Shown one piece after another: positions 5,438 to 44,222 of a stretch of DNA of 46,911 nucleotides (the stretch's first letter is position 1; each line of letters starts with the position of its first letter). The position numbers were made by a program, and so were the translations under genes. The notes beneath the pieces were generated by a model. It was given only the letters and a program-made list of their open reading frames with translations. It was not told where the DNA came from and ran no database searches. Source of the stretch: a virus; the IMG/VR virus record IMGVR_UViG_3300036851_000408, positions 1 to 46,911 of that record; one strand, written 5' to 3'.

Positions 5438-7045
5438 ATGGAACGCTTCGGCGCTCTACCCGATAGCCTTAGCGAGCTTGCTGAGGCCGATCTTGATGCT
5501 TTGGAGCAGAAGGCTAATGAGCGTCTTGCTGCACTGAAGCAAGTTACCAACGCCAGTGCTGAGGATCGTGCCGAACTGGCTGCCATCAAGGCAGCTAGGC
5601 CCGCTCTTGCAGCTGAGCGTGCTTCCCGTGCTGAGTTTGCAGCTGACCTCACCGAGCTTACGGCTGAGCCTGAGGCGGTTGTGGAAGCGGCTGGGGCCGT
5701 TGCCGAGCCTGGTGAGGAGTCGGAGGTCGAAGAGGAGGTCGAAGAGCCTGCAGAGCCCATTCTGGAGCCTGTCCTGGCGTCTGCTGCTCAGAAGCCCCCT
5801 GCCAAGAAGGCTCAGCCTTCTACAGCTGTTGCTGAGGCGACGAAGCCCCCGTTTACGATTGTTGCTGCTGCTGATGTGCCTGGGTTTGGTGTCGGTGCCA
5901 ATATGCCTGACCTCGACACTTTGGCTGAGGCTCTTCACAAGAAGGCCCGAACTCTTGCGGATTCTCATGGCAACCAGACTAGTTATCCTGTTGCGACGAT
6001 TGAGAAGACGTTTGGCAAGGGTTATGATCTGAGCATCCTTAATGAAGAGGATTCTTGGAATGCTCTTGCTGCTGGAACTAAGCCGGAGGTTCTGGTTGCT
6101 TCTGGTGGTTGGTGTGCTCCCTCGCAGATTCTTTACGATCTGCTTGACCTTGAGTGCGTTCGGGATCAGCTTTTCACTCTGCCCACCTTCCGGGTGACTC
6201 GTGGTGGCATTCGGTTCCCAACTTACGACACGTTTGATCCTGCTTTCGATCCGTCGTTTGTCTGGACTGAGGCTGACGACATTGCTGTTTCCGGCACCAA
6301 GCCGTGTATCACGCTTGACTGCCCGGTGTTTGAAGAGTGTCGTCTGGATGCACATGGTCTGTGTATTACGGTTGGTAACCTTATGGACAGGGCTTACCCT
6401 GAGAACGTGCGGTTCCAGATCCGTAGGGCCATTCGTGCTTACGAGCGTGCGGTTGCGCTTCGTATTCTCACTGCGGTTATCGCTGGTTCTACTGCAGTTA
6501 CTGTTGATGCTTCCTTTGGCACCGGTTCTGCCCTGATCTCCAGTCTTCTTCTTCAGGCTGTTGACTATCGGCAGGAGAATGGCCTTTGTTGCGGTGAGAC
6601 TCTTGATGTGGTCTTCCCGTGCTGGGTTGCAGATACTGTTCGGGCTGACGTTGCTCGTCAGGAAGGCACGCTTTCCATTGGTTCGCTGCCTTCTAATGCT
6701 GATGTGACGAGTTGGTTCGCATCTGTTGGTCTCAATGTGAGGTACATCAACAACTGGCAGACCTTTGCCACGCATCCTGCTACTACGTGGCCTGACACTG
6801 TTGATTATCTTCTCCTTGCTCCCGGTTCGTGGGTTCGTTTTGATGGTGGGCGTTTGGATCTTGGAGTTATTCGTGACTCCACTCTCAACGCTACCAACGA
6901 CTTCACTGCGGTATGGTTTGAAGAATTTTATTGCATTGGGAACCGTGGACCGGCTTCCCGTATCGTTACTAACACGATTTGCCAGCTTGGTGAGGTTGGT
7001 GGCCGTAACCCGAGTACGGGTGAAGCTACTTGTCCTACTGGTTAA
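5438..7045 (+). CDS. Major capsid protein with fused scaffold-like N-terminus
   Basis: Main shell subunit, HK97-fold type. Of 535 residues, the first ~140 are Ala/Glu/Leu-rich and predicted coiled-coil (ERLAALKQVTNASAEDRAEL), then an acidic and Pro-rich linker: a delta-domain or scaffold-like segment probably removed by the upstream protease. The mature-like part begins near PPFTIVAAADVPGFGVGAN and includes the GIRFPTYDTFDPAFDPSF and AYERAVALRILTAVIAGSTAV segments typical of actinophage capsids. Cysteines are frequent (e.g. CITLDCPVFEEC). It follows the protease and precedes a terminator, consistent with a highly expressed single gene. The exact cleavage site is not visible. Confidence 0.9.
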   Translation: MERFGALPDSLSELAEADLDALEQKANERLAALKQVTNASAEDRAELAAIKAARPALAAERASRAEFAADLTELTAEPEAVVEAAGAVAEPGEESEVEEEVEEPAEPILEPVLASAAQKPPAKKAQPSTAVAEATKPPFTIVAAADVPGFGVGANMPDLDTLAEALHKKARTLADSHGNQTSYPVATIEKTFGKGYDLSILNEEDSWNALAAGTKPEVLVASGGWCAPSQILYDLLDLECVRDQLFTLPTFRVTRGGIRFPTYDTFDPAFDPSFVWTEADDIAVSGTKPCITLDCPVFEECRLDAHGLCITVGNLMDRAYPENVRFQIRRAIRAYERAVALRILTAVIAGSTAVTVDASFGTGSALISSLLLQAVDYRQENGLCCGETLDVVFPCWVADTVRADVARQEGTLSIGSLPSNADVTSWFASVGLNVRYINNWQTFATHPATTWPDTVDYLLLAPGSWVRFDGGRLDLGVIRDSTLNATNDFTAVWFEEFYCIGNRGPASRIVTNTICQLGEVGGRNPSTGEATCPTG

Positions 7046-7110: not shown

Positions 7111-7422
7111 ATGGAATTAGAATTTGATATTGAGAGTTTTGAGGTTGGAGACGAGTTCGTTGGTAATACCAAAGAACTTCGTTCGTTTATACGGTCTGTT
7201 TTAGAGGTTGGCGGTATTGTAAGAACAGTTAGCCATAACACAGCCAGGATTCTTGATCTTCCAAAGGTTGAGGCCCCGAAAAAGTCTCAATCTCCTGTAT
7301 CTAAGCTCACGAAAGAGGTAGAGTCAGATGGCGCTCATCAATTGCGGATTCCAAGTCCCTGGTCCGATTCTTCTTCCTCCTCGCTACGGTCTGCTGACGG
7401 TAGCAACCCCAGTAACTCCTAG
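7111..7422 (+). CDS. Hypothetical head-region protein
   Basis: About 103 residues from ATG 7111 (RBS AAGGA at 7098-7102); a TTG six bases upstream is less likely. The N-terminal 60 residues look folded (FEVGDEFVGNTKELRSFIRS, VGGIVRTVSHNTARILDLP), and the last ~35 are Ser-rich and overlap the next gene by 95 bases in another frame. Lies between the capsid gene and a likely virion gene, so a head-associated role is probable. I do not recognise a family. Confidence 0.6.
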   Translation: MELEFDIESFEVGDEFVGNTKELRSFIRSVLEVGGIVRTVSHNTARILDLPKVEAPKKSQSPVSKLTKEVESDGAHQLRIPSPWSDSSSSSLRSADGSNPSNS

Positions 7423-8185
7423 GGACGGTCACTGGGAAGCTGGTATCACCTGGGATAATGAACTGTGTAGCGAAGTTCATAGCACTTCGCTCACTTGTCC
7501 TCCTGTCGCTGAGCCGAAGACACCAGAGCGTGACTTCGAGTTTTGCTGCGCCGATCCCTTCGTGCTTTATGGATCCTATAATTGCCCCCCGGTAGGCAGA
7601 AGCGCCAATGATGCATTCCGTATCGCTACTCAGAGACTTCGCATCCACGAAGGGCGAGAGTTGGAGCGAGTCTTTTGGACAGGCGTTACTGACTCTGGTG
7701 AGGATATCAACCCTAGCCTTGCTTTCGGTAACAGCGAGTGTGGGTCAGCTGCCGTTATTGTAGGCGAAGGGGAACTGAGCCCAACGGCTGGGCTGGCTGT
7801 CCTCGAAAGTGCTCTGGTTGACTGTGCTCCTGGTGGCGGTGTTATTCACGCCAACTACGGATTGGCTGCCTACTTTGCTGCGGCTCATCTCATCTACCGA
7901 GATGGGGATACCTGGTTTACCGTTACCGGACAGCGCATTGCTTTTGGTGCTGGTTATCCAGGGAGTGGCCCGGACAACGTTGCGGCGGCTGCTGGCACTA
8001 GCTGGTTGTTCGCTACTGGCCCTGTAGGTATTTGGCGGTCTGACATCTTCTTGACTCCTGAGCGTCTGGACCAGGCTGTTGATCGTGATATCAACGACGT
8101 TACCGTGTTCGCAGAGCGTACGTACGCCGTCGGATGGTCCTGCTGCCTCTTTGCAACCTTGGTCACTCTTTGCTCGTCCTGCTAA
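7328..8185 (+). CDS. Conserved virion protein, possibly minor capsid
   Basis: A 285-residue protein, Cys-rich at both ends (LCSEVHSTSLTCPP, FCCADPF, WSCCLFATLVTLCSSC). The middle has GGGVIHANYGLAAYFAAAHL and GQRIAFGAGYPGSGP, and the C-terminal VTVFAERTYAVGWSCC reads like the last strands of a capsid-like fold. By position it could be a second capsid or vertex protein, but I cannot confirm homology. ATG 7328 has GAGGTAGAG upstream and lies inside the previous gene. Translation is clearly real by codon pattern and length. Confidence 0.6.
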   Translation: MALINCGFQVPGPILLPPRYGLLTVATPVTPRDGHWEAGITWDNELCSEVHSTSLTCPPVAEPKTPERDFEFCCADPFVLYGSYNCPPVGRSANDAFRIATQRLRIHEGRELERVFWTGVTDSGEDINPSLAFGNSECGSAAVIVGEGELSPTAGLAVLESALVDCAPGGGVIHANYGLAAYFAAAHLIYRDGDTWFTVTGQRIAFGAGYPGSGPDNVAAAAGTSWLFATGPVGIWRSDIFLTPERLDQAVDRDINDVTVFAERTYAVGWSCCLFATLVTLCSSC

Positions 8186-11535: not shown

Positions 11536-11796
11536 ATGCCTGAAGATCAAGCAATTCAGCAAGCCCAAATTGTTGCGGAGAAAGTAGCCACCAGACAAAA
11601 CACTATTTATCTTATGTGGGAAACAACACAAGCTTTAGTGGCTATATCCCTGGTTATGGCAACGATCTATTCCAGTCTATTTTCTACAGAGATTCCCGAG
11701 ACATTAAAGAATGCTTTGTTCATTGTGATGGGCTTTTATTTCGGTAGAACTAATCATGCACGCCCTGTCATTGATGCTAAAGCGCCCGTTGTTTAA
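11536..11796 (+). CDS. Small membrane protein, holin candidate
   Basis: An 86-residue protein with two predicted membrane segments, TTQALVAISLVMATIYSSLF and the ALFIVMGFYFGRT region, separated by a short polar turn, with charged termini. Size and topology fit a holin, but the endolysin lies 19 kb downstream, so a different membrane role is equally possible. ATG 11536 has AAGGAG (11520-11525) upstream. The TAA shares its last base with the next ATG. Confidence 0.55.
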   Translation: MPEDQAIQQAQIVAEKVATRQNTIYLMWETTQALVAISLVMATIYSSLFSTEIPETLKNALFIVMGFYFGRTNHARPVIDAKAPVV

Positions 11797-12458
11797 TGTT
11801 AATTATTCTTATCCCAGTTCTTCGGCGCCCTCATAGAATTGTGCCTCTTCTTCAGTCAATTGAAGAGACTACTACTACTATTAAGTATGATGTTCTCTTT
11901 ATAGCCTCTCCTTCAGATAGAGAAGAAATAAAAGAGCTTAATAATGAGGGCGCACCCTTTATAGTCATGACTGATGACTACGAAGGGCGAGGAGATTACG
12001 CCCGGAAGATCAACTTTGGCTATAGGCAGACAACTGAACCATACATCTTTCTTGGCGCAGATGATTTAAGATTCTATCCTAATTGGTTTGAAATGGCTAG
12101 TAGACGAATGGTTGGCCGTATTGGTGTTGTTGGAACCAACGATCTAGGAAACCCAAGAGTTAAGGCTGGACAACACTCTACACACTCATTAGTATCCAGA
12201 GAATATGTAGATAAGTACGGCACTATTGATGAGAAAGGAAAGATCCTTTACGAAGGCTATAGTCATTGCTTTGTTGATGATGAGCTAATAGCAACCGCCC
12301 GGAGACGTAGAGCATGGGTATTTGCAAAGGACTCAATAGTGGAACATAACCATCCTAATTGGGGAAAAGGAATTATGGATGATGTTTATGAATCAGGGAT
12401 AAAGAATTTTCAAAGAGATGCTCAATTGTTTATGGCTCGACGAAGGAAATTTAGATGA
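11796..12458 (+). CDS. Glycosyltransferase, GT-A fold
   Basis: A 220-residue family-2-like glycosyltransferase: N-terminal strand LIILIPVLRRPHRIVPLLQS, nucleotide-sugar region, metal-binding acidic triad in YIFLGADDLRFYPNWFE, and a late EHNHPNWGKG segment likely in the acceptor site. It lacks membrane segments, so it probably acts in the cytoplasm. First of five such enzymes in this cassette. Substrate and acceptor (virion protein, DNA or cell surface) cannot be told from sequence. ATG coupled to the upstream membrane protein. Confidence 0.75.
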   Translation: MLIILIPVLRRPHRIVPLLQSIEETTTTIKYDVLFIASPSDREEIKELNNEGAPFIVMTDDYEGRGDYARKINFGYRQTTEPYIFLGADDLRFYPNWFEMASRRMVGRIGVVGTNDLGNPRVKAGQHSTHSLVSREYVDKYGTIDEKGKILYEGYSHCFVDDELIATARRRRAWVFAKDSIVEHNHPNWGKGIMDDVYESGIKNFQRDAQLFMARRRKFR

Positions 12459-13069
12459 TCGATGTTTCGATTGTGATCAGCACTTTCGGGAACAAGAGAT
12501 GGGAATATTTAGCCAATACTCGTGCAATTCCGTCTGCTAATCGTCTTGGTGTTCCGGTCATCTATAATCATGGACCATCACTATATGAAGCTCGGAACTT
12601 GGGGCTGAATTCTGTTAAAACAGAGTTCGTCTGCCATTTGGACGCTGACGATGAACTGGACAGTCGTTTCCTCCATGAGATTGCAGCTGCAGAAGGTGAT
12701 CTCCGAGCCCCCTCTGTCCAGTACAAGCGCAGCGGAGGACGTGCTGCAGCCCGGATGCCCAAGGTCGCAGGGCATACGCATGACTGCGTGGCTGATTGCC
12801 TGGACACCGGTAACTGGTTGGTAGTGGGAACTGTGGCCCCGACAGAGCTTCTCCTACGGGTTGGCGGATGGAGAGACTACGCTTGGTCAGAGGATTGGGA
12901 CTTATGGCAGCGGTGCTGGATTGCGGGTGCTACAGTAGTTCCGGTTCCGAAGGCGATTTATATCGCTCATACAAATCCTAGAGGTAGGAATAATTCTAGA
13001 ACCCATGCTGATAAAGTTAGGATTCATCATGAAATTAGAAAAGAAAATCTTCCGCATCTATATAGGTAA
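12455..13069 (+). CDS. Glycosyltransferase family 2-like
   Basis: A 204-residue protein with MIDVSIVISTFGNKRW (nucleotide-binding strand), the ARNLGLNSV motif typical of family 2, and the DxD-type motif CHLDADDELD. Late residues GGWRDYAWSEDWDLWQRCW match the GG(F/W)-ED(x)DLW pattern around the catalytic base. Shorter than cellular members, so close to a minimal GT-A domain. Start overlaps the preceding gene by four bases (ATGA). Confidence 0.82.
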   Translation: MIDVSIVISTFGNKRWEYLANTRAIPSANRLGVPVIYNHGPSLYEARNLGLNSVKTEFVCHLDADDELDSRFLHEIAAAEGDLRAPSVQYKRSGGRAAARMPKVAGHTHDCVADCLDTGNWLVVGTVAPTELLLRVGGWRDYAWSEDWDLWQRCWIAGATVVPVPKAIYIAHTNPRGRNNSRTHADKVRIHHEIRKENLPHLYR

Positions 13070-13072
13070 GCC

Positions 13073-13729
13073 ATGAGCATAGCTCTTCTTGTGATCACTG
13101 ATGGTAGAGGGGATTGTCTTAAACAAACTATCCCTTCTGCGCTTGCCATGTTGGAAGGTCCTATAACTCACCGGATGATCTTTGATGACTCAGGTGATGC
13201 TGAATACCGCCGTTGGATCTTTCAATCATTCCCCACCTTTGAACTGTTCTTCGAGCCTGGTCGTAAGGGTTTTGGGGGAGCTATTCAAGCAGCTTGGAAT
13301 CATCTTAAGAGATACGACAAGTTTGAATATGTTTTTCATTTGGAGGATGATTTCTTATTCCATCGTCCGGTTCCTCTTGTGGACATGATGAAGGTTCTGG
13401 ATGATCATCCTTATCTATATCAGCTAGCACTCAAACGCCAACCTTGGAATGACACTGAGAAGCAGGCAGGAGGTATTATTGAACAGCATCCGGGAGACTA
13501 CACACAGAAAGAGAGTTGGATAGAACACAGACGATTTTTCACTACTAATCCTACTTTGTACCGACGATCATTGATGGATATTGGGTGGCCGAGTGGAATC
13601 CATTCTGAAGGCCACTTCACACACAAAATTTTGAATATGGATCCAGAAGCTCAGTTTGCATTTTGGGGCCACAGAGCAGATGAGCCCTGGGTGCAGCACA
13701 TTGGTGCAAGACAAGGAACGGGGTATTGA
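13073..13729 (+). CDS. Glycosyltransferase-like protein, GT-A
   Basis: A 218-residue protein with SIALLVITDGRGDCLKQTI at the N-terminus, a metal-binding HLEDDFLFHRPVPL motif and an acceptor-side NPTLYRRSLMD segment. The order (strand, acidic EDD, then aromatic-rich C-terminus) fits a GT-A enzyme. Sequence differs strongly from its neighbours, so this is not a recent duplication. The TGA overlaps the next ATG. Confidence 0.7.
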   Translation: MSIALLVITDGRGDCLKQTIPSALAMLEGPITHRMIFDDSGDAEYRRWIFQSFPTFELFFEPGRKGFGGAIQAAWNHLKRYDKFEYVFHLEDDFLFHRPVPLVDMMKVLDDHPYLYQLALKRQPWNDTEKQAGGIIEQHPGDYTQKESWIEHRRFFTTNPTLYRRSLMDIGWPSGIHSEGHFTHKILNMDPEAQFAFWGHRADEPWVQHIGARQGTGY

Positions 13730-14283
13730 TGTCAAACAAAGGAAAATGGGATCGTTGGTGTCAGGGATTGCGTGAGGTCCAGGCTTATGGTGATACAGTT
13801 ACATATGAAATGGGTGGTGAATTTCTCCGGGATTGTTCTGTAGTGGAAGATTGGGGGGCGGGAAAAGGTTGGTTCAAGAAGTTTGTGCCGCAAGGCCGAT
13901 ACAGAGGAATAGACGGCTCCCACACTCCGTTTGCAGAGAAGATTGTTGATCTAGTTGAATATACGAGTGTAGTACCTGGTATCTATATGCGACATGTACT
14001 AGAACATAATTATCAATGGCAGTTTATTTTAGCGAACGCCCTGCGGTCATTCACTGAACGCATGGTGTTGGTTCTCTTCACTCCATTATCTGATACTACC
14101 CACGAGATTGCTTATGCAGATGATCCTGGGGTTCCAGATATTTCATTCAGTCTTGAAGAGTTGCTTGATATATTTAAGACTGCAGGGTTGAAGGTTGAAT
14201 ACCAAACCCTAGAAACTGCAACTCAATACGGTGTCGAGACTGTTTTCTTTTTGGAGAAAAGTGTACATACCAATGGGACCTGA
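13729..14283 (+). CDS. SAM-dependent methyltransferase-like protein
   Basis: 184 residues from ATG 13729, which overlaps the previous stop (TGATG); a TTG three bases earlier is unlikely. VVEDWGAGKGWFKKFV resembles motif I (E/DxGxGxG) of class I methyltransferases, YRGIDGSHTPFAEKIVDL motif II, and MRHVLEHNYQWQ the conserved HVLEH phrase of methyltransferase family 11-type domains. May methylate a sugar or virion protein in the same pathway. The glycine motif is imperfect. Confidence 0.7.
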   Translation: MSNKGKWDRWCQGLREVQAYGDTVTYEMGGEFLRDCSVVEDWGAGKGWFKKFVPQGRYRGIDGSHTPFAEKIVDLVEYTSVVPGIYMRHVLEHNYQWQFILANALRSFTERMVLVLFTPLSDTTHEIAYADDPGVPDISFSLEELLDIFKTAGLKVEYQTLETATQYGVETVFFLEKSVHTNGT

Positions 14284-14791
14284 ACCTATTCCGGGATGCA
14301 CTGCTCCAGGTAGTCATATCTGGGGGTGGATGAGCCCGGACGAGCTTGAGTGGCTGCGAACACGAGCTTCTGAGATGGAGAGTGTGGTTGAGGTTGGTAG
14401 CCTCAGGGGGCGTAGCGCTTACGCTCTTCTGACTGGTTGTTCCGGGCCAGTTTATTGCATAGATCCTTGGGATGATGAATATAAGCAATCCTATCCAGCA
14501 TTTATGGAGAACTGTGGGCACTTTCCTAATCTCAGAGCAGTGCAGGGATTCTCTCCTGCTGTAGCATCCGGAATTCCAGATGTAGATATGATATTCATCG
14601 ATGGGGCACATGATGAAATTAGTGTTACTGCTGATATAAAAGGATGGTGGCCCAAAACTAAAAAGATCATCTGTGGACATGACTATGTTCCAGGTGGTTC
14701 TTTTCCTGATGTAGCAATTGTTGTTGATAGGATTTTTGGAAACAGAGTTAAGGTAGCTGAGAACACTGCCATATGGTATGTGGAGGTATAA
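14261..14791 (+). CDS. Class I methyltransferase-like protein
   Basis: About 176 residues. VVEVGSLRGRSAYALL is motif I (ExGxxxGxS), VYCIDPWDD motif II, and VDMIFIDGAHDEISVTAD the FIDG-H-Y-like motif of methyltransferase family 24 proteins, often linked to glycan biosynthesis. Start is uncertain: GTG 14261 lies four bases after GGAG, while ATG 14273 lies 16 bases after it; both overlap the previous gene. Likely a partner of the flanking glycosyltransferases. Confidence 0.75.
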   Translation: MYIPMGPEPIPGCTAPGSHIWGWMSPDELEWLRTRASEMESVVEVGSLRGRSAYALLTGCSGPVYCIDPWDDEYKQSYPAFMENCGHFPNLRAVQGFSPAVASGIPDVDMIFIDGAHDEISVTADIKGWWPKTKKIICGHDYVPGGSFPDVAIVVDRIFGNRVKVAENTAIWYVEV

Positions 14792-15561
14792 TGGCTACAT
14801 TTGGAATTGCGATGGTTAAAGATGAAGCAGATATCATCGGTCCAGTAATCAGTCATATATTGACTCAGGTTGATGAGATTATCGTTGCGGACAATAGATC
14901 CACAGATGGGACTCGTGAGATCTTGGAATCCTTCCCAATTACTGTCATTGATGATCCTGAAGTGGGCTACTACCAGTCATTCAAGATGACCAGTCTTGCT
15001 CGTGTTGCTCGGAACCAAGGTGCTGAATGGGTGGTTCCTTTCGATGCTGATGAAATTTGGTACAGTCCTTTCGGTGTTATTAAAGAGATCCTTGGTAGTT
15101 TGGGGCCTCAATGGTTAGTTGCTTCGGCTGCTCTCTACGATCATGTCAGTAGCTCGAAGGATGATTTAACTATATTGAATCCAATACGGCGCATTGGGTG
15201 GCGCCGCTCCTATCCGGGGACACTCCACAAGGTAGCTTGTCGATACCGTGACGATCTAGTGATTCAGCAGGGCAATCATGGTGCCTGGTATCAGGGAGGA
15301 GGCACTCAGCAGGACGGTCTGCTCACCATCCGACATTTCCCGTACCGATCTCCTGAGCAGTTCATACGTAAAGCTAAAAACGGTGCAGCAGCTTATGCAG
15401 CTACTAATCTGGATGAAGATACTGGAGCCCACTGGCGAGGTTATGGACGTATTTTGAAAGAACATGGAGAAGATGCTCTAGCTGATGTTTTTTATACTTG
15501 GTTCTACCTTCATGATCCTCAAACTGCCTTAGATGTTATATATGATCCGGTTCCCGTATGA
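14791..15561 (+). CDS. Glycosyltransferase family 2-like
   Basis: 256 residues from ATG 14791 (RBS GGAGG at 14782-14786). ATFGIAMVKDEADIIGPVI is the classic opening of family-2 enzymes that act on short acceptors, followed by ADNRSTDGTREIL and the metal site VVPFDADEIW. The C-terminus contains HFPYRSPEQFIRKAKNGAAA, seen in this subgroup. Clear coupling to the upstream methyltransferase (TAATG). The acceptor is unknown. Confidence 0.85.
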   Translation: MATFGIAMVKDEADIIGPVISHILTQVDEIIVADNRSTDGTREILESFPITVIDDPEVGYYQSFKMTSLARVARNQGAEWVVPFDADEIWYSPFGVIKEILGSLGPQWLVASAALYDHVSSSKDDLTILNPIRRIGWRRSYPGTLHKVACRYRDDLVIQQGNHGAWYQGGGTQQDGLLTIRHFPYRSPEQFIRKAKNGAAAYAATNLDEDTGAHWRGYGRILKEHGEDALADVFYTWFYLHDPQTALDVIYDPVPV

Positions 15562-16232
15562 GCATCTCGGTTGTAATCCCATTCAAATCTGATAATCTAT
15601 ATCGCCAAAAGTCTTTCGACTGGGTAAAATTGTGGTGGAAAATTAATTTCCCTGGATGGCAGAAGCTCGTTGCTTTCAATGATCCTTTTACTAAAGCCGG
15701 GGCTATCAATTATGGAGTTAGAGAGACTAGTGGTGACACTATTGTTATTGCTGATTCTGATTGCTTTACTCCTGATGTTGCTGGACTACAACGACTAGTT
15801 GAAGAAGTTGAATCTGGAAAACAGCCTTGGATGACCCCACATAGATTTGTATATAGACTTCCAGAAAAGATATCTAATACAGTTTATGAAGAAAATTCTA
15901 TCGATCTTAAGGGTCTTACTAGATCTATTGGATGCATCGGGGGTGGTCTACTTATAGTAAGTAGGGAGGCGTGGAACATTTCTGGCGGATTTGATGAGCG
16001 ATTTACGACGTGGGGTGGAGAAGACGTTTCATTCGGAATGGCATTGGAATCCCTATGTGGACCGCAGACTAGAGGACGCCTTGACTTGGTCCACCTCTGG
16101 CATCCGCCTATGAGTGGGGACTTCAGGCTTCCTGATTCAACGGCTAGACTGATCCAAGACTACCGTAGGGCGAGTCGGCATCCAGATCGGATGCGGGCGC
16201 TGATTGCTGGTAGGACACAACATAGTGTATGA
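15558..16232 (+). CDS. Glycosyltransferase with galactosyltransferase-type C-terminus
   Basis: 224 residues. SISVVIPFKSDNLYR opens the GT-A fold; VIADSDCFTP is the DxD site; GGGLLIVSREAWNISGGFDE and FTTWGGEDVSFG match the GG-FDE-x-x-GWG-ED-D signature of the galactosyltransferase C-terminal family. Ends with a basic tail. Last gene of the cassette, just before a structured leader. Overlaps the preceding gene by four bases (ATGA). Confidence 0.85.
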   Translation: MSISVVIPFKSDNLYRQKSFDWVKLWWKINFPGWQKLVAFNDPFTKAGAINYGVRETSGDTIVIADSDCFTPDVAGLQRLVEEVESGKQPWMTPHRFVYRLPEKISNTVYEENSIDLKGLTRSIGCIGGGLLIVSREAWNISGGFDERFTTWGGEDVSFGMALESLCGPQTRGRLDLVHLWHPPMSGDFRLPDSTARLIQDYRRASRHPDRMRALIAGRTQHSV

Positions 16233-33525: not shown

Positions 33526-34055
33526 TGACACATGTGCGCTGGGAGATCGAGCGTGCGTGGTGGGGCACGGGCGTCCAGGAGGACAACGAGAAGCTGGAGC
33601 GCCTGCTGGCGGAAGGCTGGGAGCCGTTCGCCGTAGTCAGCGCAGGACAGGCGGGAGCCGTCTACCACTTCCGTCGCCCCACTCAGTTCGACGGCAGGAT
33701 GCGCTGGGAGCCAGCGGCCAACCCGAACGCCGCAGTGCTCGGCGAAGGCCGCTGGATCGAAGACCTGCGTCTCACGCTGGAGCATCTTGACCAGGCGTGC
33801 CAACAGATTGGTGGGGAGCCGTGCGAGGCGTCGTTCGTTTGGCGGCTCCGACAGGCGCTCGGATTCAACGGGAGGGAGATGCCGCTGACCGATGACGCCT
33901 GCCCCGGTTCATTCACTGAACCGATCGCTTGGAACGATGGCAATAGTCCGTCAATGGTATTCTGCCCCGCCTGTAAGACGTGGCTCCCAGCGCTGTCGGA
34001 GTACTTCAGCGTGACCAGTAACGTGGTGCCTGGCCACCCTAAGGAAGAAGAATAA
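33525..34055 (+). CDS. Hypothetical GC-rich protein
   Basis: 176 residues. VRWEIERAWWGTGVQEDNEK and LLAEGWEPFAVVSAGQAGAV read like the DUF1737/4177-type beta-alpha unit (E-LL-EGW-PF) common in phages; later MVFCPACKTWLPAL is half a zinc knuckle. Much richer in G and C than both neighbours, so probably a recent insertion into the operon. Coupled at both ends (TGATG, TAATG). Function unknown. Confidence 0.6.
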   Translation: MTHVRWEIERAWWGTGVQEDNEKLERLLAEGWEPFAVVSAGQAGAVYHFRRPTQFDGRMRWEPAANPNAAVLGEGRWIEDLRLTLEHLDQACQQIGGEPCEASFVWRLRQALGFNGREMPLTDDACPGSFTEPIAWNDGNSPSMVFCPACKTWLPALSEYFSVTSNVVPGHPKEEE

Positions 34056-35794
34056 TGGAAGATACAGTAATTCACTTTGTAGAATCATGTGCTGACATAG
34101 AAGACTATCTACGTTGGCTCTCTGAAGATCGTGAATGGCTTGCCATAGACTCTGAGACGGGTGGTTTGGAATTTTGGAAGCAGCCTTTGCGCTTGGTACA
34201 AGTTGGTGATACTCAGGAGGCGTGGGTCTTCCGGGCTGATCGGTGGCTTGGTGTCATCGAGGAAACTATAGAGAAGTACGATGATCGGTGGGTGGGACAG
34301 AATCTTCCATTCGATATCCGGTTTTTGGATGCTCAGGGTGGAATCAAGTTCCCATGGAGTAAGGCTCATGATACTAAAACGATGGCCCACATCATTAATC
34401 CTAATCGTTCGACTTCTCTCAAAAGTCTGGGTGCTTCATTCCTATCTCCGCAAGCCAAAAAGCTCCAAGGAACACTTCAGGCTGCGATGGCTACTCAAAA
34501 ATGGGGATGGGGGGACATTCCCCTAGACTTCCCTATATATTGGGGCTATGCGGGTGTTGACTGCATTCTTACGGCTCGAATCGCAGAAAAATTCTGGCCT
34601 GAGATTGAAGCAAGCTTCCTGCCTGTCTATGAATTAGAGATGCAGATTGCCAGAATCTGCTCGAATATGGAAATGAAAGGCACCCGGATAGATCTGGAGT
34701 ATTGTGATGCTAGGTATCAAGAGATCCTACAATACTGTGAGTCCGTTGAACAATGGTGTCTTGAAAATTACGGAGTACGTCCTTCCGAAACTCAATCCGT
34801 TGCGACGAAGCTCGTACAGGAGGGTGTGGATCTTTCAAAGACTACACCCACTGGATTGTGGTCCATGGACAAGGACGTTCTCGAAGGGCTTGATCATCCG
34901 CTCGCACAGGCTGTACTCGGTCACAGACAAAAGACAAAAATAGGTTCAGCCTATTTCGAAAACTTCCTGAAGATGCACGATAATGGGGTTCTGCACCCTT
35001 CTATTAATACACTTGGTGCAGTTACAGGACGCATGTCCATCCAGAATCCAGCACTTCAGACCTTGCCTCGTGGGTCTATTGTCCGGGATGCTTTTATACC
35101 TCGTCCTGGGTTTGGTTGGATTAGTGCTGACTTTGACGCCGTAGAGATGCGGCTCCTGGCCCACTTCTGCCAAGATCCTGGGATGCTGGCCGCTATTCGA
35201 GAAGGAGATGCGACAGGCTCTGACATCCACACAGAGATGGCCCGGATTGCTTATGATGACTTCTCAATCACCCGTAAGGATCAGAGACGCCAAACATTCA
35301 AGAATGCTAACTTCGCAAAAGCGTACGTTGCTGGTACGGAAAAGTTTGCCTGGACTGCTGGACTTCCTTTGGACGAGGCTACGGCATTCTTGGATATGTA
35401 TGATGAGCGGTTTCCTGAAGTAAAATCTTTTCAGAGAAAGGTAATTAATGTTGCAAAACAAAGACTCGCAAGTGAAGGATCAGCTTACGTCCTATCACCT
35501 TTGGGGCGTAGACATACAGAAAAACAAGACAAGATCTATGCACTCGTTAACAAGCTCATTCAAGGGACAGCAGCTGACGCTTTCAAACAATCACTCATCG
35601 ATCTTGATATGGCTGGATTTGGGGAATACCTCGTATTGCCTGTCCATGACGAAGCCTGCCTGGAGCTTCCGTTGGAGCAAGCCAAGGACATGGTTCTTGA
35701 AATTGAAAAGGTAATGACGCAGTCTGGGTGGTCTGTTCCTCTGACGGTATCAGCGGAGGGCCCGTTTGCCCGGTGGGGGGACAAGAGCCGATGA
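34055..35794 (+). CDS. polA-like: DNA polymerase I (3'-5' exonuclease + polymerase)
   Basis: 579 residues; replicates phage DNA. No 5' nuclease domain. Exonuclease motifs: AIDSETGG (Asp32/Glu34), GQNLPFDIRF, YAGVDCILTAR. Polymerase motif A SADFDAVEMRLLAHF (near 359), motif B QTFKNANFAKAYVAG with the Lys, Phe and Tyr of Pol I family O-helices (near 415-422), motif C LPVHDEACLEL (near 532). The Phe at the position of E. coli F762 is the common deoxy-selective form. Motif B is unusual in having NFAKAY rather than NFGLIY. TAATG coupling at its start. Confidence 0.95.
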   Translation: MEDTVIHFVESCADIEDYLRWLSEDREWLAIDSETGGLEFWKQPLRLVQVGDTQEAWVFRADRWLGVIEETIEKYDDRWVGQNLPFDIRFLDAQGGIKFPWSKAHDTKTMAHIINPNRSTSLKSLGASFLSPQAKKLQGTLQAAMATQKWGWGDIPLDFPIYWGYAGVDCILTARIAEKFWPEIEASFLPVYELEMQIARICSNMEMKGTRIDLEYCDARYQEILQYCESVEQWCLENYGVRPSETQSVATKLVQEGVDLSKTTPTGLWSMDKDVLEGLDHPLAQAVLGHRQKTKIGSAYFENFLKMHDNGVLHPSINTLGAVTGRMSIQNPALQTLPRGSIVRDAFIPRPGFGWISADFDAVEMRLLAHFCQDPGMLAAIREGDATGSDIHTEMARIAYDDFSITRKDQRRQTFKNANFAKAYVAGTEKFAWTAGLPLDEATAFLDMYDERFPEVKSFQRKVINVAKQRLASEGSAYVLSPLGRRHTEKQDKIYALVNKLIQGTAADAFKQSLIDLDMAGFGEYLVLPVHDEACLELPLEQAKDMVLEIEKVMTQSGWSVPLTVSAEGPFARWGDKSR

Positions 35795-36215: not shown

Positions 36216-36376
36216 CATCACATAACGCCGAAAGTGTGTGGGTCACGGTGAGGTGCGGGAAGTGTGGCTCCACCATGGAATGGCGCAAGGACACCTTCCA
36301 TGCTGACGCAGGTGAAGCCATGGTTTGCTGCGGCGCCTTTTGGTATCCGCATCAGTCCGACGGAACTGTGCCATGA
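36212..36376 (+). CDS. Small zinc-ribbon-like protein
   Basis: 54 residues, ATGA overlap on both sides. Knuckles VRCGKCGSTMEW and AMVCCGAFWYPH give CxxC and CC for one zinc site. More G+C-rich than the surrounding genes. Probably nucleic-acid or protein binding; unassigned. Confidence 0.6.
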   Translation: MTSHNAESVWVTVRCGKCGSTMEWRKDTFHADAGEAMVCCGAFWYPHQSDGTVP

Positions 36377-36804
36377 GTCAGGTTTACCAAGAACGTCCTG
36401 GATGGGATGCTTATTTTTTAGCCATATGCAAAACAATCTCTCTGAGAGCAGATTGTAGGAGGGCACGGCATGGATGTATCATCGTCAAAGATCATAGGAT
36501 CGTTTCCACCGGATATAACGGCTCACCTAGTGGTGGTCCTAGCTGCCTTGCAGGAGATTGCCCCAGAGGGTTGCTCAGTAATGATGAATGTAAGTCCCTT
36601 ACTTCCTACGAAAACTGCATTAGTCTTCACGCCGAACAAAACGCTCTGGCTTACGCCTCTTGGAACGATACTAGAGGTGGAACCCTCTACATCACAGGAA
36701 TTCAATGTGACATGTGTAGAAAGCTTACCCAAGCAGCCGGAATAATCAGAGTAGTTTGGCCTACTGGAACAGAGGAATTTAATGAACCAAGAAGAGATCC
36801 TTAG
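36373..36804 (+). CDS. dCMP deaminase-like
   Basis: Converts dCMP to dUMP, feeding dTMP synthesis for phage DNA. 143 residues from ATG 36373, which overlaps the previous stop. SLHAEQNALAYA (zinc ligand His86, catalytic Glu88) and GIQCDMCRKL (Cys112, Cys115) form the active site; the usual Pro before the first Cys is replaced by Gln. Extra Cys at 58, 63 and 73 may bind a second zinc, as in T4-type enzymes. RHGCIIVKDHRIVSTGYNGS is the substrate-side motif. Confidence 0.88.
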   Translation: MSQVYQERPGWDAYFLAICKTISLRADCRRARHGCIIVKDHRIVSTGYNGSPSGGPSCLAGDCPRGLLSNDECKSLTSYENCISLHAEQNALAYASWNDTRGGTLYITGIQCDMCRKLTQAAGIIRVVWPTGTEEFNEPRRDP

Positions 36805-37063
36805 ACGAGCCGCTGAAGCAGCAAAGAACATGAAGATGGAACCTACCCCGCACCAGCAAGGTGTTCAACCGCAGCCTAGCCCTATATCCATAAATCTTTC
36901 TCATGGTAAATCTCAAGACGGAACATCTTTTGTTGTCCTCACTATTCAGCATCTGACGGGATCTAGTGTGTTTTATGTTGATGCTGACGGAGCCGAAAAA
37001 ATTGGTGACATGCTTAAGGAAACGGCTAGGCTGGCCCGAACAGGATTGGAGATTGTTAGGTGA
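36782..37063 (+). CDS. Hypothetical protein
   Basis: 93 residues, overlapping the deaminase by 23 bases. A helix (NQEEILRRAAEAAKNMKM), a Pro/Gln linker, then strands (FVVLTIQHLTGSSVFYVDAD) and a helix (KIGDMLKETARLARTGLEI). The strand-helix tail resembles small regulatory domains seen in phage early genes. No enzyme motif. Ends GTGA with the kinase. Confidence 0.55.
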   Translation: MNQEEILRRAAEAAKNMKMEPTPHQQGVQPQPSPISINLSHGKSQDGTSFVVLTIQHLTGSSVFYVDADGAEKIGDMLKETARLARTGLEIVR

Positions 37064-37575
37064 TTATCGGACTCTACGGGCCCAGCCGTTGCGGAAAGGA
37101 TTCCATAGCTAAAATTCTTCAAGATAAGTATGATTATGAATGGCGTCAGTTCGCTAAAAATCTCAGACTAGTTCTTGAATCTATTAATCCTTATCTTTCT
37201 AATGGATATAAGTATAAGGAAACTGTTGAAACTCTTGGCTTAGATTTAATGAAAGAGAGTTTTCCAGAATCGGTGGACTACATGATTGGCTTAGGGCAAG
37301 CTGTCCGGGATATTATTCATGAAGATGCCTGGACTTGGAGGCCTCTCATGGATATCCCTGAGAACATGGTTATCTCTGACGTGCGTCAACCGAATGAGGC
37401 TGAGAAGATCTTGGACTTGGGTGGGCAGTTGTGGCGTATAGAGCGCCCTATAGGCTCTAAGAAGCGTGGAATGGATGGACTTCTCAATCACTTTGCTTTT
37501 GATATTGTTATTTATAATACAGGCACTCTAGCAGATCTGGAAACTGTTATTGATGCCATTATGGAGGAGAAATGA
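37060..37575 (+). CDS. Deoxynucleoside monophosphate kinase-like
   Basis: Phosphorylates dNMPs for DNA synthesis. 171 residues from GTG 37060 (overlaps the previous TGA). P-loop GLYGPSRCGKDS (residues 4-15), ISDVRQPNEAEKI with the DVR motif typical of this family, and a late INTG-like YNTGTLADLE. LGLDLMKE and AWTWRPLMDIP are substrate-side segments. Sits beside the deaminase, so the two likely cooperate in the same pathway. Confidence 0.85.
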   Translation: MIIGLYGPSRCGKDSIAKILQDKYDYEWRQFAKNLRLVLESINPYLSNGYKYKETVETLGLDLMKESFPESVDYMIGLGQAVRDIIHEDAWTWRPLMDIPENMVISDVRQPNEAEKILDLGGQLWRIERPIGSKKRGMDGLLNHFAFDIVIYNTGTLADLETVIDAIMEEK

Positions 37576-37661
37576 TACGTAAAATCATCGGGACTGCCAT
37601 GCTTATCTGGGCTATTTTACTTCTCCTGGTTGAGTTGGACTGGCGGCTTCACCGTAGATGA
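37572..37661 (+). CDS. Tiny single-span membrane protein
   Basis: 29 residues: basic start MIRK, hydrophobic core (IIGTAMLIWAILLLLVEL) and basic end (RLHRR). ATGA overlaps on both sides confirm translation. Function unknown. Confidence 0.6.
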   Translation: MIRKIIGTAMLIWAILLLLVELDWRLHRR

Positions 37662-38107
37662 GAATCATAGGGGTTGATCCAGGAAAAGTTACAGGCATTT
37701 GTTCTTTCTATCTTGATGAATACTCTGAACATCCTGAATTAGTTACTCCATATGAATTAGAACTTAGTGGAGTTGGACAGTATTTTCAGAATCAGCTTGG
37801 ATCTTTTAATACGGTCGTTGCCTGTGAAGCTTTCATCATTACTCCTCAAACGGCAAAAAATTCACAAGCTCCTTGGAGTTTGGAAACAATTGGTATTGTT
37901 AGATATTTCTGTGAGAAAGCTAGTGTTCCCTTTTTTCTACAGGCACCCTCGTCGGCCAAGCGGCTCGTCACCGATGGTGTCCTGAAGCGGGCGGGTCTAT
38001 ACTTTCCTGGTAAGGGCCATAGCATGGACGCTGCCCGGCATGCCCTCTACCTTGCAATGACAAGCTATGGATTTATGCAGCACTCCCTGAAAGTTGAGGA
38101 GGAGTGA
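37658..38107 (+). CDS. ruvC-like: RuvC-like Holliday junction resolvase
   Basis: Cleaves branched DNA during replication and recombination, helping packaging. 149 residues, an RNase-H fold: IIGVDPGKVTGICSF (Asp7), VVACEAF (Glu57) and a C-terminal MDAARHALYLA with Asp124 and His128. The order of acidic residues matches RuvC. Compact, close to the size of phage enzymes. Its final TGA overlaps the Pup start. Confidence 0.85.
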   Translation: MRIIGVDPGKVTGICSFYLDEYSEHPELVTPYELELSGVGQYFQNQLGSFNTVVACEAFIITPQTAKNSQAPWSLETIGIVRYFCEKASVPFFLQAPSSAKRLVTDGVLKRAGLYFPGKGHSMDAARHALYLAMTSYGFMQHSLKVEEE

Positions 38108-38313
38108 TGACGTACGCAACGACAAATAGTAGAGATAGGGCCATAGCAGATGCCAAGAAACTCGCAGAAGAGGACACCGCTGCTGTAGAAGATAGAGCCA
38201 CCAAGGATGTAGAAGACCTCAAAGAGGAAACAGATAATCTGTTGGATGAAATTGATTCCATCCTTGAAGAAACGGCTATCCAAGCTAACTTTCGGCAGAA
38301 AGGTGGGGAATGA
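38107..38313 (+). CDS. pup-like: Prokaryotic ubiquitin-like protein (Pup) homologue
   Basis: 68 residues from ATG 38107 (TGATG over the resolvase stop). The C-terminal half LKEETDNLLDEIDSILEE (38-55) closely matches the Pup core that binds the proteasomal ATPase Mpa/ARC; it ends FRQKGGE (62-68). Pup-type proteins are ligated by PafA through a C-terminal Glu; those ending in Gln first need Dop. Here the Glu is encoded, so it is pre-activated. The N-terminal ~37 residues are charged and unstructured-looking, as needed for engaging the unfoldase. No PafA, Dop or proteasome gene is in the window, so host enzymes would be used. Confidence 0.93.
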   Translation: MTYATTNSRDRAIADAKKLAEEDTAAVEDRATKDVEDLKEETDNLLDEIDSILEETAIQANFRQKGGE

Positions 38314-38565
38314 GTGTTCTTCCAATCTTCACCCAAAACTATTGCACTACAATCTGTTCTTTCTCAGGGGTCAGCTGATCTAAGTTTGGTGGGAAAGTTG
38401 ATAGGGACTCATCACCCCATTACATGCAACAGTGTGATAGGTCTGGAGGAAGATGGAACAATGACGTGTGATCATTCTAGTGCTCCCCCGGACAATCCCC
38501 GTAATCAAGCTATCATCGATGCAACTATTGCGATTTTGATAATTGAAATGGCGGGCAGTTTATGA
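38314..38565 (+). CDS. Hypothetical protein next to Pup
   Basis: 83 residues from GTG 38314, the base after the Pup stop. Two Cys (HPITCNSVIGLEEDGTMTC, 17 residues apart counting from ITC) and an amphipathic C-terminal helix (QAIIDATIAILIIEMAGSL). The following gene overlaps it by ATGA, which supports translation. Could work with Pup as a target or adaptor, but this is only suggested by position. Confidence 0.55.
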   Translation: MFFQSSPKTIALQSVLSQGSADLSLVGKLIGTHHPITCNSVIGLEEDGTMTCDHSSAPPDNPRNQAIIDATIAILIIEMAGSL

Positions 38566-38729
38566 ATGAGCAAGATCGGGAAAAATATATACTGGAACAA
38601 TTGAAAGATCTTATGGAAAAAATTGAAAAAAAGAATAACATGCAATTATTGTGGAACACCTTGCTCTGGGTCCTTGCACTCTTTCTGGTCTTTGCTGTTC
38701 CCATTTTAGTTCTATCAATTGTATTATGA
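38562..38729 (+). CDS. Small coiled-coil membrane protein
   Basis: 55 residues: N-terminal charged helix (LEQLKDLMEKIEKKNNM) likely a coiled coil in the cytoplasm, then one membrane segment (LLWVLALFLVFAVPILVLSI). ATGA overlap. Same general plan as small phage proteins that block or tether host machinery; no evidence for either. Confidence 0.6.
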   Translation: MNEQDREKYILEQLKDLMEKIEKKNNMQLLWNTLLWVLALFLVFAVPILVLSIVL

Positions 38730-38909: not shown

Positions 38910-38938
38910 AACCCCCCTAGCAGAAAGCTAGGGGGGTT
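38910..38938. terminator. Bidirectional rho-independent terminator
   Basis: AACCCCCCTAGC (38910-38921) / GCTAGGGGGGTT (38927-38938), loop AGAAA. Rightward it runs into CTTTT; leftward the A-rich flank reads as a T-run. It separates convergent gene blocks. Confidence 0.92.
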
Positions 38939-38941
38939 CTT

Positions 38942-39100
38942 TTAATTCCTGCGTTCTTTTCGATTCTTGAATCGGACCTTCTTACCGTCCACTTCCGGGC
39001 TCTCATTAGCTACCTCATGAACGAAGGCAGCTTTTTCGTGGCGTTCCACACGCTGGGCCCTACGCTTAGCTTTATTTTCTAGACTGTTCCGCTGCGACAC
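38942..39100 (-). CDS. Small basic protein
   Basis: 52 residues from GTG 39100, inside the end of the upstream gene (overlap 29 bases), with AAAGG six bases before it. Very basic (NKAKRRAQRVERHEKA, RFKNRKERRN), so nucleic-acid or ribosome binding is plausible. No family recognised. Last gene of the leftward block. Confidence 0.6.
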   Translation of the reverse strand: MSQRNSLENKAKRRAQRVERHEKAAFVHEVANESPEVDGKKVRFKNRKERRN

Positions 39101-42691: not shown

Positions 42692-43498
42692 TTAATGAAC
42701 TGACTTGTGATACTTAGCTGCCCACAAGGCCAACAATCCCAGTCCGAGCACTCCAACTCCAATGGACAGGAGAGCGTCGGTTAGACCACCGGTCTTTGGC
42801 AACTCAGTGACAGGAGCGGGAGTAGCGGCCTGCTCCAGAACCTCCGTGATAGTCACTGGACAAGTAGCGCCCAGACCAACCACCGTACCGTTAGCACAAC
42901 CCACATACTGCGTGGTCACGCCGTCCTTGCCGGTTTCACCCTGAGGCCCAACGGATCCCGTAGCACCGGCAGTACCAGTCGCTCCCGTAAGGCCAGCAGG
43001 CCCAGCGGGTCCGGTTGCACCATCAACGCCGTTTGTACCATCCTTGCCGTCCTTGCCGTCTGCGCCAGCAGGGCCGACACAGTCACTCTCGTCAATCAAC
43101 GGAACTTCAAATTCATACCAGAAAGGGAAGTCACAGAAGAGAGTGACATTAATTCCCTCACCAGGAGGCCCCTGCGGACCCTCTGCTCCATCCTGGCCGT
43201 CGGTGCCATCGGTGCCATCAGTGCCGTTAGTACCATCGGTTCCGTTGGTTCCATCAGCGCCAGGAGGGCCAGTCAGGTCACAAGGCTTATCAGTAAGTTC
43301 AACAGCACCATTGCCGATGACCTTGCCGTTACTGGTGTTGTAATTAGTTTCGGCCAAGAGCCACTCATTATCGCCATCACCATCACCATCAGTGAGGACG
43401 CAGAGCCACGCCGGAATCTTCGGATCGGTAGCGTGTGCAGCGGGCGCCAGGACGACAGTCCCCGCCAGCACAGCCAGTAGAACAAACAGCTTACGCAT
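42692..43498 (-). CDS. Secreted collagen-like protein with LPKTG anchor
   Basis: 268 residues from ATG 43498 (RBS AAAGGAAAG). Signal peptide 1-23 (RKLFVLLAVLAGTVVLAPAAHA). Two collagen-like Gly-X-Y tracts, about 76-113 (GTNGTDGTNGTDG type) and about 141-193 (GADGKDGKDG, GPAGPAGLTG). C-terminus: LPKTG (233-237), a membrane segment (LLSIGVGVLGLGLLALWAA) and basic tail KYHKSVH: the complete sorting signal that sortase A-type enzymes use to join proteins to peptidoglycan. The protein would sit on the infected cell's wall, so it is not obviously a virion part. Overlaps the next gene by one base. Confidence 0.9.
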   Translation of the reverse strand: MRKLFVLLAVLAGTVVLAPAAHATDPKIPAWLCVLTDGDGDGDNEWLLAETNYNTSNGKVIGNGAVELTDKPCDLTGPPGADGTNGTDGTNGTDGTDGTDGQDGAEGPQGPPGEGINVTLFCDFPFWYEFEVPLIDESDCVGPAGADGKDGKDGTNGVDGATGPAGPAGLTGATGTAGATGSVGPQGETGKDGVTTQYVGCANGTVVGLGATCPVTITEVLEQAATPAPVTELPKTGGLTDALLSIGVGVLGLGLLALWAAKYHKSVH

Positions 43499-43755
43499 TA
43501 CTTTCCTTTGTTTGTCATTGTTTTCCTGAGGAGTTTCTGACCCGGAATGGGCAGACCCCACCACAGATGTAGGACAAGAAGGCTTTCACACCCTGCGACT
43601 AGAGCACGCCTTCTTTTAGATTGAATGCACCGACCATGCGCAACAGATAACGTTTCCCATCCATTACGCATAGCCAGCGCATCATACACTAAGATTCCTG
43701 CGAAGAAACCAACCCAAGCCGTCTCTGCCGGGTGGTCCCTGAGCATTTGTCGCAT
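43498..43755 (-). CDS. Small membrane protein
   Basis: 85 residues. Two hydrophobic segments (WVGFFAGILVYDALA and LVAGCESLLVLHLWWGLPI) flank a basic region (SKRRRAL). It starts 67 bases inside the WhiB-like gene. Position beside the secreted anchor gene may be chance. Function unknown. Confidence 0.6.
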   Translation of the reverse strand: MRQMLRDHPAETAWVGFFAGILVYDALAMRNGWETLSVAHGRCIQSKRRRALVAGCESLLVLHLWWGLPIPGQKLLRKTMTNKGK

Positions 43756-44222
43756 TTTTTAGCGCCCTTCTCAAAGAAAAGGCGGATTAATTTACAACTA
43801 GGACACACACCCACTCTCTTTGCTTTCTTGATCTGCTTACGTTCGCCCTCTGTTAGTCCGCCCCAAATCCCATAATATTGATGGTTTTTGAGAGCATAAT
43901 CTAGACATTCCTTCGAGACTGGGCAATCAACACAGATCTGTTTAGCTGGAGTAGTAGACTGACCTCGTTCTGGAAAGAATATCACTGGGTCAAAGCTTGG
44001 ACATGCAGCATGAATCGTCCAATCTTCGAGATTGAATATTATCTTAGGGGATGTTTCTCCGTACGGGCCATGCTCTTTTCCCACCACTACTTTACCCCAC
44101 CTAGTCCCGTTGGCAATATTGCAAACTAGACCAGAGCTAAGATCATACTTTATGCAGACATCACGCTGCCGCATAGTAAGTAGATCATATTTGATTTGTT
44201 TAACTTGTTCTACGGTAAGCAT
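43689..44222 (-). CDS. whiB-like: WhiB-family regulator, HTH-WhiB-zinc-ribbon fusion
   Basis: 177 residues. N-terminal ~45 (LTVEQVKQIKYDLLTMRQRD, CIKYDLSSGLVCNIANG) looks like a helix-turn-helix. WhiB core: Cys74, Cys97, Cys100, Cys106 in the C-x22-C-x2-C-x5-C spacing, then GIWGGLTEGER (118-128): the Fe-S and RNA-polymerase sigma-binding region. C-terminal zinc ribbon: Cys140/143 and Cys157/160. WhiB proteins are specific to Actinobacteria and their phages. It may control host or phage genes; which is unknown. Confidence 0.93.
   Translation of the reverse strand: MLTVEQVKQIKYDLLTMRQRDVCIKYDLSSGLVCNIANGTRWGKVVVGKEHGPYGETSPKIIFNLEDWTIHAACPSFDPVIFFPERGQSTTPAKQICVDCPVSKECLDYALKNHQYYGIWGGLTEGERKQIKKAKRVGVCPSCKLIRLFFEKGAKKCDKCSGTTRQRRLGLVSSQES

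Follow-up and report, generated by a model that had tools for sequence, protein, structure and literature searches.

A divergent Pup homologue in an actinophage contig and standalone Pup genes in other uncultured phages

Standalone genes for the prokaryotic ubiquitin-like protein Pup recur in dozens of uncultured phages and in one cultured phage, and the enzymes of pupylation are absent from them wherever this could be checked. Such recurrence points to use of the host pupylation-proteasome system in infection. The gene analysed here encodes 68 residues and belongs to IMG/VR record IMGVR_UViG_3300036851_000408, positions 1 to 46,911 (46.9 kb), a viral contig referred to below as the window. 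Judged from its sequence, the protein is a divergent homologue of Pup and not an ordinary host Pup. The explanation that we favour, with about even confidence, is that it is a phage-acquired, modified Pup which would act through host enzymes, the tag being attached by host PafA. The features of the window on which the argument draws are listed below; L-numbers (L002, L148, etc.) are the labels of contigs or loci compared in the analysis.

152-1381 (+): terminase large subunit, which marks the contig as phage (phrog_38, E 8e-14)
1667-3235 (+): portal protein (phrog_776, E 5.5e-114)
5438-7045 (+): major capsid protein (phrog_777, E 3e-106)
34055-35794 (+): phage DNA polymerase, same module as Pup (phrog_17, E 3e-116)
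36325-36804 (+): dCMP deaminase, same module as Pup (phrog_2369, E 1.5e-39)
37060-37575 (+): deoxynucleoside monophosphate kinase, same module as Pup (phrog_139, E 2.5e-35)
37658-38107 (+): RuvC-like/Holliday junction resolvase-like gene directly 5' of Pup, 1-nt overlap (phrog_1981, E 7e-18; phrog_1770, E 4e-5)
38097-38102 (+): Shine-Dalgarno AGGAGG, 4 nt 5' of the Pup ATG (sequence)
38107-38313 (+): phage Pup homologue, 68 aa, ending QKGGE (PF05639 match, PDB Pup matches, translation)
38236-38265 (+): Pup residues 44-53, NLLDEIDSIL, conserved helix 1 core (alignment; helix limits from PMC5286830)
38275-38292 (+): Pup residues 57-62, AIQANF, shortened helix 2 with two residues lost (AEDFVRAY in Mtb Pup; alignment)
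38296-38310 (+): Pup residues 64-68, QKGGE, C-terminal tail; its Glu would be the residue activated by PafA (translation, alignment)
38314-38565 (+): 83-aa protein with no assigned function, directly 3' of Pup; a homologue also follows Pup in L002 (sequence comparison)
38562-38729 (+): 55-aa ORF with a hydrophobic C-terminal stretch, Pup operon (ORF translation)
38910-38943 (+): GC-rich hairpin with T-run, terminator-like end of the operon (sequence)
43689-44222 (-): WhiB-like regulator, of a family typical of actinobacteria and their phages (phrog_472, E 3e-23)

The ORF at 38107-38313 is real, has a strong ribosome-binding site and lies within the DNA-metabolism operon of a genuine actinophage. 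The first base of its ATG is shared with the TGA of the preceding RuvC-like gene, and re-translation of the + strand yields MTYATTNSRDRAIADAKKLAEEDTAAVEDRATKDVEDLKEETDNLLDEIDSILEETAIQANFRQKGGE, in agreement with the length, core and KGGE ending given by an earlier, sequence-only reading of this DNA. A host-contig artefact was ruled out by the position of Pup within a continuous phage operon. Relatives of the capsid protein found with tblastn are almost all within actinobacteriophages, and the contig also encodes an endolysin and a Sak4-like protein. For the 83-aa protein, no relative other than the L002 copy was found. The contig contains no match to the PafA/Dop family, as the sequence-only reading had noted in reporting no ligase, and no proteasome subunits were found in it. 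With Dop, PrcB/A, PafA and Mpa all absent near Pup, the locus does not constitute a Pup-proteasome gene cluster. A search of IMG/VR for relatives of the phage via its polymerase gave no match, the patterns probably being too specific, and its tRNA-Met had no match among 397 genomes, which is uninformative on the host. Elsewhere, the window encodes a secreted protein of collagen-like repeats that carries an LPKTG sorting signal and a membrane anchor (42692-43564, -) and, within the structural region, a run of glycosyltransferase-like and methyltransferase-like genes (11796-16232, +).

Membership in the Pup family is supported by profile searches. The sequence-only reading had proposed a Pup homologue in a phage, and comparison with Pfam PF05639 bears this out: residues 17-68 score 35.6 bits (E 1.8e-8), above the gathering cut-off of 27. 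In a six-frame PF05639 search of the whole record the same protein was retrieved with 34.7 bits (E 1.5e-9), and its top PDB matches are mycobacterial Pup (E 6.7e-5). The Pfam score excludes a chance acidic coiled coil; matches to phasin, RRF and similar proteins were below cut-off. PHROGs contains no family matching Pup. By sequence, two features of Pup are present, namely, the Gly-Gly-Glu/Gln C-terminus (here QKGGE) and a helix 1 core, in which NLLDEIDSIL aligns with DLLDEIDDVL. Against the NCBIfam equivalog model TIGR03687 the protein scores 24.2 bits, below the cut-off of 41.45, and is therefore classed as a Pup-family homologue rather than a proven functional equivalent.

Cellular Pup (PF05639; e.g. 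Rv2111c of Mtb and L062 of M. hodleri) shares with the phage protein the LLDEID core, the GG[EQ] end and a similar size, but sits with Dop, PrcB/A, PafA and Mpa, has a 17-residue tail and a disordered N-terminus. Pup was found in 160 of 397 sampled actinobacterial genomes, nearly always as a single copy; 159 of these 160 score at least about 66 bits, as against 34.7 for the window protein in a similar search (scores of the weakest rows were inferred from E-values). Among 80 cellular Pup loci, 75 adjoin genes for Dop, a proteasome subunit or Mpa. The five exceptions are Rokubacteria MAGs (L045, L056, L060, L061 and L074), in which Pup ends in RGGE and has no Dop, Prc or Mpa nearby. A cellular mini-Pup of ~40 aa was also observed (L162:1465-1587); it lacks the usual N-terminal half, ends in QQGGE and lies directly 5' of a PafA-like gene.

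The phage protein departs from cellular Pup in helix 2. Published limits place the Mpa-bound helix of Pup at about residues 20-51 and the two PafA-bound helices at 38-47 and 51-58, and the helix 1 core of cellular Pup binds both Mpa and PafA/Dop (PMC5286830). By these limits, helix 1 is retained in the window protein and helix 2 is two residues short (AIQANF vs AEDFVRAY), so the change lies in the segment that contacts PafA/Dop rather than in the one that Mpa also uses. The core helix is followed by 15 residues up to the C-terminus, fewer than in any other tail compared, whereas all 37 distinct cellular tails have 17, the spacing expected for the PafA/Dop groove. This two-residue loss in the PafA/Dop-binding helix, absent from the sequence-only reading, makes ligation uncertain. 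The N-terminus was already noted in that reading as unlike cellular Pup. AlphaFold2 predicts a single helix spanning residues 5-60 in the window protein, compared with 23-58 in a mycobacterial Pup run as control (one and the same set of sequences served as the alignment in both runs); in the control, the predicted helix matches the known Mpa-bound one. Since the N-terminus is predicted to be helical rather than disordered as in the control, entry into the proteasome may be impaired.

Pattern scans built from alignments of increasing breadth identified Pup in 63 further IMG/VR contigs. Viral Pup contigs form about 17 groups by shared genes (loose single linkage over mechanical ORFs), T4-like phages included. 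No Dop, PafA, PrcA/B or Mpa was found in the examined flanks of any viral Pup locus, and PF03136 (PafA/Dop) had no match in the 24 viral records searched whole. Neighbours of viral Pup genes include ThyX, dCMP deaminase, the terminase small subunit, the portal protein, and UvsY with a UvsW-like helicase; this diversity of locations suggests that Pup was gained, or moved, more than once. In an alignment of 17 viral Pups, only the start Met, a Q, the GG pair and two core residues are invariant. GG[EQ] closes 43 of the 44 distinct viral tails, and normal helix 2 spacing is kept in 37 of 43. Within phage Pup groups, dN/dS over the coding tail is mostly 0.02-0.35; a single pair reaches 0.64, and some comparisons are saturated. 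These values come from related groups, the window protein itself having no close enough relative, and indicate that phage pup genes are kept as proteins.

The viral Pups most like that of the window are those of L002, L003-L006 and L008-L009, which are likewise standalone and Glu-ending, with the core kept and helix 2 diverged or shortened. They differ in having lost one helix 2 residue or none and in their tails (QQGGE, QVGGE or QEGGE); although found via the core motif and not the tail, all of them end in GGE. L002 and the window also have their tail, endolysin and 83-aa genes in common. In L003-L009, Pup is followed, directly or past one small ORF, by a gene whose L003 copy matches phrog_226. 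The short-helix pair L003/L004 has a dN/dS of 0.09. On the L004 contig, an ORF at G003:C1:25788-26210 gave a weak proteasome-family match (16.4 bits, below cut-off, E 1.6e-4). The T4-like L148-L157 also carry a standalone Pup ending in GGE, but represent another phage type, have a canonical helix 2 and a UvsY-Pup-UvsW gene order (read in L148:4996-5172). Among L148, L149, L156 and L157, dN/dS is about 0.02-0.06 where synonymous change is large enough. In isolated phages, the nearest relatives of the helicase are only ~50% identical.

The sequence-only reading had described the window protein as pre-activated, a ready-made Pup that skips Dop. The Glu ending is real and the term is chemically correct, but as an explanation it is weak. 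A terminal Glu is no speciality of phages: it is present in 27 of the 80 cellular loci sampled, and the 44 distinct viral 34-residue ends, that of the window included, divide into 27 with Glu and 17 with Gln. Moreover, the two residues interchange between the near-identical phage Pups of L142 and L145, one ending in E and the other in Q. Skipping Dop would follow only if the host's own Pup ended in Gln. All five viral sequences with a divergent helix 2 end in Glu, yet they represent about three lineages, too few for a statistical link between the two features, which was set aside.

Pup is not confined to uncultured phages. The initial view that no isolated phage has Pup, based on blank tblastn searches, was overturned when another query found Streptomyces phage Dagobah; the blank searches were weak, with a genuine Nonomuraea Pup reaching only E 0.5, probably due to low-complexity filtering. 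Dagobah is a siphophage grown on Streptomyces coelicolor, and its protein QMP84414.1 (MT711977.1; pup at L159:14875-15111) is annotated as 'ubiquitin-like protein' with the note 'ubiquitin-like protein Pup'. As in the window, the gene is standalone, its product ends in Glu, and it adjoins endolysin and DNA-metabolism genes. The Dagobah protein differs in its length (78 aa), in an apparent duplication of the helical core, in its ending, VGGE, and in helix 2, which has the canonical length. Related Pups with an apparent second core copy upstream (e.g. DTDAVLEVVEEALEDQLDAELLNAIDDVLEENAEGF) are found in L018, L128, L138, L141 and L146. The role of phage Pup is directly testable, because Dagobah grows on S. 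coelicolor, which is a laboratory host. Another GenBank entry, MT835496.1 (L160, 'Bacteriophage sp.'), was rejected: the examined stretch is a bacterial Mpa-Dop-Pup-PafA locus, and the entry is probably mislabelled. In the searched text of the Dagobah paper (PMC7650747), Pup, ubiquitin and the proteasome are all unmentioned, and in the open-access literature searched we found no study of phage Pup. Viral Pups apparently form a widespread, unstudied set, of which the window protein is one member.

The conserved core and GG[EQ] end, together with the absence of the phages' own enzymes, suggest that the most likely route of action of viral Pup is via host PafA, Dop and Mpa. Host PafA would activate the terminal Glu and couple phage Pup to lysine residues in proteins of either host or phage, so that pupylation would be maintained or redirected during takeover of host gene expression. 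Tagged proteins would then be recognised by host Mpa/ARC via the conserved core. With helix 2 shortened and the N-terminus predicted to be helical, ligation, depupylation by Dop and engagement of the proteasome would be balanced differently, giving tags that are perhaps harder to remove or harder to degrade. Retention of a Glu/Gln terminus, including Gln forms that need prior conversion, favours a tag that is actually attached, because a ligated tag needs such an end. The Pfam match, the actinophage context and low dN/dS are in line with this, as is lysine content. Lysine makes up 3.3% of the window phage proteome vs 5.8% in lambda and 6.5% in T7 (two control phages of similar GC, simple ORF calling); the major capsid protein has a lysine-free run of 247 aa at its longest, and a 285-aa protein (7328-8185, +) has one lysine only. 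Mycobacteriophages show a similar low-lysine trend (PMC10665810); the lysine content of the window phage suggests a pupylating host. Against attachment of the tag speak the diverged helix 2, two residues short, the missed TIGR03687 cut-off, the N-terminus predicted to be helical and the presence of Pup in only 160 of the 397 actinobacterial genomes. A bolder version, which we regard as unlikely, is that phages of pupylating bacteria repeatedly took Pup for host takeover and that the Pup of the window lineage is attached by PafA, poorly removed by Dop and poorly engaged by the proteasome, which would produce long-lived conjugates or a proteasome block. If true, such a tag would be a viral ubiquitin-like modifier. 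Exploitation of ubiquitin by eukaryotic viruses is well known. As natural variants, the divergent helix 2 and N-terminus would help to tell ligation, depupylation and degradation apart.

The shortened helix 2 makes a serious rival of the possibility, to our mind somewhat unlikely, that phage Pup is a decoy or inhibitor which ties up PafA, Dop and/or the coiled coils of Mpa without being put to productive use, jams pupylation and degradation and so protects phage proteins. The combination of a diverged or shortened helix 2 with a retained helix 1 and GGE, seen in the window, L002, L003-L006 and L008-L009, would suit such a role, and so would the predicted helicity of the N-terminus that the proteasome would grip. 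The low-lysine proteome, paralleled by the mycobacteriophage trend (PMC10665810), suggests that pupylation burdens the window phage. However, neither the almost strictly kept GG[EQ] nor the Gln found at 17 of 44 tails, which requires conversion before ligation, has an obvious use in a pure decoy, and the normal helix 2 spacing in most distinct viral tails (37/43) does not fit a decoy either.

Attachment of the tag could also be selective, with the 83-aa neighbour or another phage factor directing pupylation to chosen host proteins, e.g. defence proteins. The 83-aa gene adjoins Pup in both the window and L002, even though the L002 Pup is on the opposite strand to the structural genes. Nevertheless, there are just two examples of the pair, from phages with other genes in common, so common descent suffices; the lack of any further 83-aa relative and the unrelated neighbours of other phage Pups, from ThyX to UvsY/UvsW, likewise make this version improbable. 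Least probable in our view is a captured host gene without present function, either neutral cargo or a decaying remnant. The window copy is indeed the most divergent in C-terminal spacing, and relaxed constraint could yield two-residue losses, but its ORF is intact, with a strong ribosome-binding site, a tight operon and a conserved tail, and related phage groups show purifying selection and recurrence in about 17 contig groups.
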